Source: a virus. From it: 38,035 nt of DNA. Location of the stretch: the IMG/VR virus record IMGVR_UViG_3300042474_000294, positions 1 to 38,035 of that record; one strand, written 5' to 3'. Under the pieces are notes generated by a model. It saw nothing but the letters and a program-made list of their open reading frames with translations. It was not told the origin of the DNA and did not search any database. The position numbers were made by a program, and so were the translations under genes. Shown here piece by piece: positions 16,968 through 19,116 of the stretch (position 1 is the stretch's first letter; each line of letters opens with the position of its first letter).

Positions 16968-17966
16968 TTAAGGTGCGCCACCAAAGGCTACGTTAGGGTT
17001 GTTACGGTTACCCAACATGTTTAGTAATTGGTTTTGATAATACATATTGCTCAAATTGCTAATGCCGCCGGTAATGGCGTTAGCCCCACCAATGTAACCC
17101 GATGCGCGTGCGTTAGCGCCACCCATCAACGCCTCAGACGCGCCTTGACCGTATCCGCCTAGCGCATTAAAAGTGCCAGTGCCTAACGCGCCATACGCAC
17201 CTGTAGCGCCTTGTGAGGCTGCGCCGTACGCGTTCATCGCGCCTCCGCCTGCCGCACCCATAGCTTGGCCACCAGCGCTGCCGTAATTAGCGCCCGCAGC
17301 ACCGGTCATGTTAGCAGCGTTTAAGCCCACGCCTTGCAAGTTTTGATACGGGCTTAGTGTGTTGCCGCGAATTGTTTGGTAACGGTTAAACGCGTTGCCG
17401 TACTCTTGCGACGCCATCTCTTGACCGAAGCGCTGTGACGCTTTAAGAGCCGCACCGGAGATAAGACCCCCACGCGCAGCCGCTTGTGCGTCTACTGCTT
17501 TTAAGCCTTCTTTCATACGAAAACCGTAGCCTGGGTCTTGTCCTGCGGCAAACGCTTCTGGCGTAAACTCAGCCGTGGCGTACTGACCATACCCAGGCGC
17601 GGCGGTACTGCCGCCAATGCCAAGGTATTCTAAAAGTTTGTTTTGTCCAGCTTGACCCGCTTCGCGGTAAGGCGCCAAGTCCGTGCGTTGCTGTTCATAA
17701 ATTTGTTTCTGAAACGCAAGTTGTTTTTCTAGTGTTTCATAACTAGCAGCCAATTGCTTATCAAGAAACCCACCTTGCGCGGCTAGTTGCTTATCAAGCG
17801 CTTCTTTTTGCGCTGCGATCTGATCTTGCGAAACTTTATACTGAAGATCCGCAGCTTCGCTAGCTGACTTGGCTTGCGTGCGTGATGCCTTGCCTGCGGC
17901 GTCTGCACTAATGGCTGCGCCAGCGACGCCCGCTACAGCAACTGCTCCGGCTACCCAACCTGACAT
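16968..17966 (-). CDS. DNA transfer / ejection protein (p32-like)
   Basis: 332 aa. Alanine-rich hydrophobic start (AGAVAVAGVAGAAISADAAG), then a repeat-like coiled coil (KEALDKQLAAQGGFLDKQLA, about 53-92), then the conserved block DPGYGFRMKEGLKAVDAQAA / ARGGLISGAALKASQRFGQE and EYGNAFNRY. That block is common to podophage proteins annotated as DNA transfer protein or minor tail protein. The C-terminal third is Gly/Ala/Tyr-rich. Expected in the virion interior, released at infection. The 5' end overlaps the SET gene by 16 bases. Confidence 0.75.
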   Translation of the reverse strand: MSGWVAGAVAVAGVAGAAISADAAGKASRTQAKSASEAADLQYKVSQDQIAAQKEALDKQLAAQGGFLDKQLAASYETLEKQLAFQKQIYEQQRTDLAPYREAGQAGQNKLLEYLGIGGSTAAPGYGQYATAEFTPEAFAAGQDPGYGFRMKEGLKAVDAQAAARGGLISGAALKASQRFGQEMASQEYGNAFNRYQTIRGNTLSPYQNLQGVGLNAANMTGAAGANYGSAGGQAMGAAGGGAMNAYGAASQGATGAYGALGTGTFNALGGYGQGASEALMGGANARASGYIGGANAITGGISNLSNMYYQNQLLNMLGNRNNPNVAFGGAP

Positions 17967-18811
17967 GGCAATTCCCCTTGTAATGCGATACCAAAATTAA
18001 CTCTCATTGACGCTCTATAATCTACCAACAATTCTTCGTTAGGATAGATAGCGCGCGTAGCTACTGCGTTTATGTCATCGCCAACAAGCACGGGGGTGAC
18101 ATTAGAATCGAAAGAATGGTTAATAAATCTACCTGCCGGTGTGCGTTTCCCGTTAATTCGACCAGGACAAATAACGTCACCTGCTGCAAAATGTTTAGTA
18201 GCAAACAATCCTTTGCCGTGAATCTTAGACGTTCTAAGCTCTACCGCATAGCCTTCAGGCATATCAATTAAATCACTTTCAATATTTACTATGTTTTCAA
18301 TTTGGTCATGCGTAAGACCTAACTGAGAAACAAATACATTATAGTCATTACGAGCATTTTGTGTTAATAGCGCTACTCTATTTTCGCCTAATCCACAAGC
18401 TGGCACAACGTATAGCCGTTCTTCCAAAACTTTAATATCTTTACAATCATCAGGATTGTTATAAACATCAACCCAAACAACTTCTTTATCAAATACCCGA
18501 CCGACCCGTTGTGCGCCAGCTTTGGCTTCAAATTCACATGGCGCGGTCATTATTTTAACTGTATCGCCCACGTTAACCGCAATTGTGCCTTGCTCAAGTC
18601 GAATTTTGTAATCAGTTTTATGTTCGGCACCGGTTAAGACGGTCCACGCAGGGATGCGAATTGCGCGTTCATAAATGCCAGGGCTAAACGTGTGGGTTGT
18701 AACAATGTCGGCTTGAGGCATTTTCAAAAGTTCATTTTGAAGCGCCTCAACCCGACCGCGCATGTCTACGGGCTTGGCCAACATGCCGCTATACGACACG
18801 GTTATATTCAT
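17951..18811 (-). CDS. Cupin-like domain fused to a SET-domain protein methyltransferase
   Basis: 286 aa. Residues about 45-135 look like a small cupin barrel (WTVLTGAEHKTDYKIRLEQG, AVNVGDTVKIMTAPCEFEAK). Residues about 190-270 are a SET domain: SKIHGKGLFAT (195-205, SAM loop), GRFINHSFDSN (227-237, with the N231-H232 pair) and the closing EELLVDYR (259-266, catalytic tyrosine Y265). SET proteins methylate lysines. In a phage virion operon it could modify a structural or host protein, which is inference. Coupled by ATGA to the gene before, overlapping the DNA-transfer gene after. A post-SET zinc segment is absent. Confidence 0.85.
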   Translation of the reverse strand: MNITVSYSGMLAKPVDMRGRVEALQNELLKMPQADIVTTHTFSPGIYERAIRIPAWTVLTGAEHKTDYKIRLEQGTIAVNVGDTVKIMTAPCEFEAKAGAQRVGRVFDKEVVWVDVYNNPDDCKDIKVLEERLYVVPACGLGENRVALLTQNARNDYNVFVSQLGLTHDQIENIVNIESDLIDMPEGYAVELRTSKIHGKGLFATKHFAAGDVICPGRINGKRTPAGRFINHSFDSNVTPVLVGDDINAVATRAIYPNEELLVDYRASMRVNFGIALQGELPCQVG

Positions 18812-19116
18812 GGCACTTCAACCCATAGCCAAGTGTTTGTGTCCAATACCCAGCCTGGGCCTGGGTCGGGGGCGTAGAACACGTCGTTGACCGAATCATA
18901 CGTGTAGCCCGCGCCGGCGTAATTGCCGCGCAACTTAGCTGACTGATCGGGGTTGGGCGTATTTGAGTTAGGCAGATACAAGACGTTGCCACGGGTGTTG
19001 TACGACGTTTCAAGCCAATTGAAAGGATCGCCCACCAAGCCCGTGTCAATGAAATCTTGATCGGCGCGGATTACCTCTTCGACAATACCGTTAGAGATTT
19101 TTGCAAAGTAGGTCAT
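18808..19116 (-). CDS. Tail-fibre associated protein (102 aa)
   Basis: Starts MTYFAKISNGIVEEVIRADQ, then a block SYNTRG...LRGNYAGAGYTYDSVNDVFY and ends in PDPGPGWVLDTNTWLWVEVP. I recognise the RGNYAGxGYxYD...PSW pattern from short proteins encoded beside tail fibres of marine and freshwater phages. Probably a virion adhesin accessory. Its stop overlaps the SET gene and its start overlaps the glycine-rich protein (ATGA at 19113-19116). Confidence 0.75.
   Translation of the reverse strand: MTYFAKISNGIVEEVIRADQDFIDTGLVGDPFNWLETSYNTRGNVLYLPNSNTPNPDQSAKLRGNYAGAGYTYDSVNDVFYAPDPGPGWVLDTNTWLWVEVP

Follow-up and report, generated by a model that had tools for sequence, protein, structure and literature searches.

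A cupin-SET fusion gene in the DNA-ejection slot of P22-like podophages encodes a probable methyltransferase

The 38,035-base window, the whole stretch of viral DNA analyzed here, carries on its minus strand a 286-aa gene (17951..18811) whose product consists of a cupin, a helical linker, and a compact SET domain, as assigned from the open reading frame and its translation, Pfam SET, PHROG 34170, and an AlphaFold2 model. Judged from sequence, the SET half is very probably a working SAM-dependent methyltransferase. The explanation that we favor, with some confidence, is that the protein is made late and docked by its cupin, and that the active SET acts near the tail or ejection site; catalysis, virion location, and substrate are what we infer in this explanation.

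By gene content (Pfam, PHROGs), the window is a P22-like podophage. Its genes are ordered terminase, portal, scaffold, P22-type coat, tail accessory factor, Hc3 head-closure, tail genes, cupin-SET, and DNA-ejection gene; beyond the ejection gene are further large genes and, past those, DNA polymerase, primase, and exonuclease. This order bears out the initial annotation, which had placed the gene in a virion operon. The overlap with a DNA-transfer gene that it described is also real. A P22 gp7-like DNA-ejection gene (16968..17966, minus strand; PHROG 598, E=5.7e-23) lies directly downstream and shares 16 bases with the cupin-SET gene, and its AGGGG ribosome-binding-like sequence is inside the 3' end of the cupin-SET gene. 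The ejection-gene family is present in 84 of the 93 loci compared. Coupling to a tail protein, claimed as well, holds only in part: an ATGA overlap does join the gene to the 102-aa gene upstream (18808..19116, minus strand), but the latter belongs to a family of unknown function, PHROG 7759, and the glycine-rich tail-like gene is one gene further upstream.

The window protein matches Pfam SET at E=5.5e-10 (40 bits versus a cut-off of 22.4), and all 80 of 80 aligned relatives match the same model at E <= 0.1. Together with motif conservation in 131 fusions, described below, these matches led us to reject a chance motif match. PHROG 34170 is matched over the full length (E=1.6e-39, residues 18-275 on profile positions 17-287 of 296) and by 75/75 relatives. 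PHROGs 12032 and 24280 match the cupin part. Searching Pfam with the window protein gave no cupin match, and the NCBIfam search returned no model matching it. Compared with solved chains, the family profile matched MLL/KMT2, KMT5A, EZH2, and the viral vSET, the best at E=2.7e-10.

The AlphaFold2 model, built with 75 related sequences, has a mean pLDDT of 88.9 and a pTM of 0.61; the domains are therefore confident, but their mutual orientation is not. Residues 34-130 (18422..18712, minus strand), the part to which the two cupin PHROGs also point, match cupins with Z 11.5 to 4e2g over 94 residues, a double-stranded beta-helix fold. Residues 184-280 match the SET domain of MLL1 (Z 10.3, rmsd 1.8 A over 80 residues, 36% identity), and the AdoHcy-bound MLL1 entry (7u5v) fits the SET half equally well. 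Taken with the Pfam match, this places the SET domain at about residues 183-275 (17987..18265, minus strand). Between the two, residues 142-175 (18287..18388, minus strand) form the helical linker, as seen in the DSSP assignment of the model and in the alignment of loci L187, L188, and L189. The fusion proposed in the initial annotation from the letters alone is thus confirmed by profile and by fold, and at the level of the overall fold the structural check that it suggested came out in its favor, with AdoHcy-bound MLL1 among the SET domains on which the model superposes. The classical cupin metal site, G(X)5HXH(X)3-4E(X)6G, is absent from the window cupin, which has A62, H64, and Y68; the main other clade has H62, Q64, and H68 at the metal positions. 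Column counts show no conservation of the classical metal ligands, and the domain appears to be a structural cupin rather than a classical metalloenzyme.

All three SET motifs quoted in that annotation are present and complete on the minus strand. Motif I, GKGLFAT, which binds SAM, covers residues 199-205 (18197..18217); motif III, GRFINHSFDSN, covers residues 227-237 (18101..18133); and motif IV, EELLVDYR, with the presumed catalytic Tyr265, covers residues 259-266 (18014..18037). Motif III of the window has Ser236 where Pro is usual (RFxNHSxxPN). Counted over 131 distinct full-length cupin-SET fusions, S195, G199, G201, R223, T224, G227, R228, N231, E260, and Y265 are invariant, which includes RT.GR, while H232 and N237 are each kept in 130/131 and D264 in 122/131, with Asn in the other nine. 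SAM-binding and catalytic positions thus stand at 130-131/131 across sequences down to about 26% identity to the window protein. Degenerate motifs in homologues, which would have spoken against the assignment, were not seen in the 131 fusions; the one decaying relative is L159 (5143-5781), where motifs I-III are deleted and DYR has become NCK, replacing the Tyr with Cys. What remains of its SET is a C-terminal piece that shares 59% identity with an intact relative over 39 residues. L159 is the sole SET without motifs I-III, and the Tyr is lost there too, which is what retention of the Tyr for catalysis would predict.

Among pairs of close relatives, several dS values are saturated or undefined; in the usable pairs the SET part mostly has a dN/dS of about 0.06-0.13, and the cupin range, 0.03-0.14, overlaps it. 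These values are well below 1, and a pseudogene or drifting domain is rejected for the window gene, although it applies to L159. It is because the catalytic residues are near-invariant, selection is purifying, and the Tyr has decayed only where the SAM site is gone that we rate enzymatic function as highly as we do.

The phage domain is also a compact SET. All 131 fusions have the same 31-residue spacing from G201 to N231, versus roughly 60 in MLL1 by alignment, which leaves little room for SET-I. A full-length SET-I and motif II region was not found in the fusions, although SET proteins differ in this region and membership was not taken to depend on it. SET-I contributes to the substrate cleft in known SET enzymes. 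Since the GxG-to-NH segment is about half the usual length, part of the SET site may have to be supplied by another surface. A short SET without the usual SET-I length, encoded within a structural operon, might instead be a structural or peptide-binding module with no catalysis. We consider this improbable, as such a module would not account for SAM-binding and catalytic positions held over so wide a range of identity, or for a Tyr that decayed in L159 only where the SAM part had gone. Sequence cannot determine the substrate, and methylation of a non-lysine or non-protein group is conceivable. However, the characterized SET enzymes are, to our knowledge, protein lysine methyltransferases, and with KMT2, KMT5A, EZH2, and vSET as the nearest solved relatives, we find such a specificity very improbable.

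Several relatives are already in databases. PHROG 34170, function unknown, groups the cupin-linker-SET family. Two cultured phages, Rhodoferax phage P26218 (P26218_30) and Pseudoalteromonas phage PH1 (ANY29560.1), carry the same fusion in the same slot before the ejection gene. In MW202744.1 the fusion is labeled 'pbcV-1 histone H3-lys 27 methyltransferase structure', and a matching phage protein, UniProt A0A6J5PTS6, is labeled 'SET domain containing protein'. These four are about 28-33% identical to the window protein, and the accessible records and papers gave no described function for them. The cupin-SET gene of MW202557.1 (L014 4356-5240) is left unannotated in its GenBank record. PBCV-1 vSET (A612L; PDB 1n3j, 3kma) is likewise a small viral SET with the same motifs and no Pre-SET cysteines (profile E=3.7e-6), but in that eukaryotic virus it forms a 119-aa protein by itself, whereas the window SET belongs to a bacterial virus and has a cupin fused to it. 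The MLL1/KMT2 SET (PDB 6u9k, 7u5v, the latter with AdoHcy) is the best solved fold match for the SET half. It differs in its longer SET-I and Post-SET, its multi-subunit complex, and its histone H3K4 target, which bacteria do not have.

The view that SET proteins are rare in phages, also part of the initial annotation, does not apply to this lineage. Motif and tblastn scans found this SET type in 369 IMG/VR stretches, and the fusion or its cupin in at least 494-547. The last set comprised 78 SET proteins, of which 76 are cupin-fused, one lies at a truncated contig end, and one is a separate bacterial copy. Prokaryotic genomes yielded 15 loci, several of them on contigs of assembled bins. The linker-SET profile matched one of 399 genomes of the order to which the Comamonadaceae carrier belongs, and this one was the carrier itself. 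From this search of one order, the SET type is chiefly phage-borne, and a bacterial chromosomal source is rejected.

Cupin-only relatives also occupy the slot before the ejection gene. BPP-1 Bbp23 and proteins of DSL-LC05, BA3, VvAW1, and X14 have a homologous cupin and no SET; in the last four the cupin slot is the same, between the head-closure/tail genes and the ejection gene. Cupin-only homologues carry the label 'short tail fiber' (PHROGs 12032/24280, phage records), which, like the label 'structural' also met in databases, is not a measured location. That the cupin gene keeps its ejection-gene slot in SET-carrying and SET-less phages alike points to the cupin as the structural part, with the SET as an optional tool. 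In BPP-1 (bbp24-bbp23, L016 3501-4420) and the Manatee Spring podophage MW202722.1 (L342 2552-3462), a GNAT-type acetyltransferase gene lies immediately before the cupin gene, so the cupin neighborhood carries another possible protein-modifying enzyme. Alteromonas phage H4/4 (L346 2884-3357), of the Autographiviridae, has the same cupin outside a P22-like operon, between an N4-like RNA polymerase and a head-tail adaptor.

On the best cupin tree of 192 sequences, a quick tree with many weak branches, SET presence or absence changes 18 times, and at least eight of these changes are forced by well-supported branches. Cupins that are 92-96% identical occur with and without a whole SET (pairs L160/L138 and L261/L255), and some SET-less forms retain the start of the helical linker. 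No SET was found elsewhere in 11 SET-less phage records and one cupin-only bacterial genome, records that may be incomplete. Across 8001 pairs of fusions the distance between cupins correlates with that between SETs (r=0.89), so the two halves are mostly passed on together. Repeated SET loss from an old fusion is the simplest reading; some regain or swapping is possible, because in a few pairs the cupins are close but the SETs are distant. L104 and L122 have cupins similar to that of L147 (0.18-0.19 different) and distant SETs (0.47), possibly through recombination swapping the SET. Repeated loss of the SET while the cupin is kept argues that the SET is dispensable for assembly. Among the frequent neighboring families we found none gained or lost together with the SET, since they occur in both groups, and for these the idea is rejected; SET-only families are small (<= 11 rows).

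The two halves can also be encoded separately. Paraburkholderia ferrariae has the cupin and the linker-SET as adjacent separate genes, and a Comamonadaceae genome encodes the linker-SET alone, with a protein that has an ejection-protein-like N-terminus encoded two genes after it. The latter locus (L188 5857-7501) reads stand-alone linker-SET, small gene, ejection-like gene, then a lytic transglycosylase-type virion gene, and looks like a prophage. Where the SET is a separate gene, the helical linker goes with it, as aligned in L187, L188, and L189.

In the role that we propose, the gene product would be a two-domain late protein. Its cupin barrel, without the classical metal site, would be a structural domain that docks the protein at the tail/DNA-ejection region of the virion or of an assembly intermediate. 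The SET, positioned there by cupin and linker, would be an active SAM-dependent protein methyltransferase, most likely for lysine, and would methylate a protein encountered by the tail during assembly or ejection, either a phage tail/ejection protein or a host cell-envelope protein. For the substrate itself, we would give a phage virion protein close to an even chance and a host protein rather less than that, and leave the remainder to other targets. Comparative alignment columns gave no SET-dependent lysine in neighboring virion proteins with adequate sampling, in a comparison of low power with few SET-less loci. Apparent SET-tracking lysines in one ejection family were rejected, as they rest on three SET-less rows.

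The accessory pattern of the SET would also fit an advantage that depends on the host. An active SET, delivered with the ejection proteins or made late, could methylate a host protein, for instance blunting a defense or altering envelope or translation proteins, with the cupin as its carrier. The many changes in presence on the cupin tree, the near-identical cupins with and without SET, and the lack of a second SET in the SET-less records searched are all compatible with it, and SET proteins from intracellular bacteria are well established as acting on eukaryotic hosts (PMC3980110, PMC2904774). Yet the gene sits among late structural genes, and a changed phage target would also give SET loss and gain. 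We therefore hold a host target of this kind to be possible, though on the unlikely side. A still more doubtful version is that the tail- or ejection-associated cupin of environmental podophages carries a lysine methyltransferase that comes into contact with the bacterial host, or gets inside it, and acts on proteins there, and that is gained and lost with host pressure. If true, modification of host proteins would parallel, in a bacterial setting, the vSET strategy of the chlorella virus.

Neither SET enzymes nor cupins are new kinds of protein; PHROGs lists the family with no function assigned, and in at least one record a member is labeled SET-like. In the literature searched, which covered few subscription papers, we found no paper uniting SET domain, cupin, phage, and tail, and no description of the fusion's combination, abundance, compactness, or pattern of gain and loss. 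A term search of the P26218 genome paper turned up none of methyl, cupin, or tail fiber, and we found no virion proteomics of a carrier phage in the literature searched.

Most work on SET methyltransferases concerns eukaryotes and the pathogens that infect them. In the phages described here, a compact SET whose active site is near-invariant occurs commonly across a large, mostly uncultured group of podophages, where it is linked to the DNA-ejection slot and is often lost whole. As P26218 and PH1 are cultured carriers, protein lysine methylation by a phage, in assembly or in host takeover, is directly testable.
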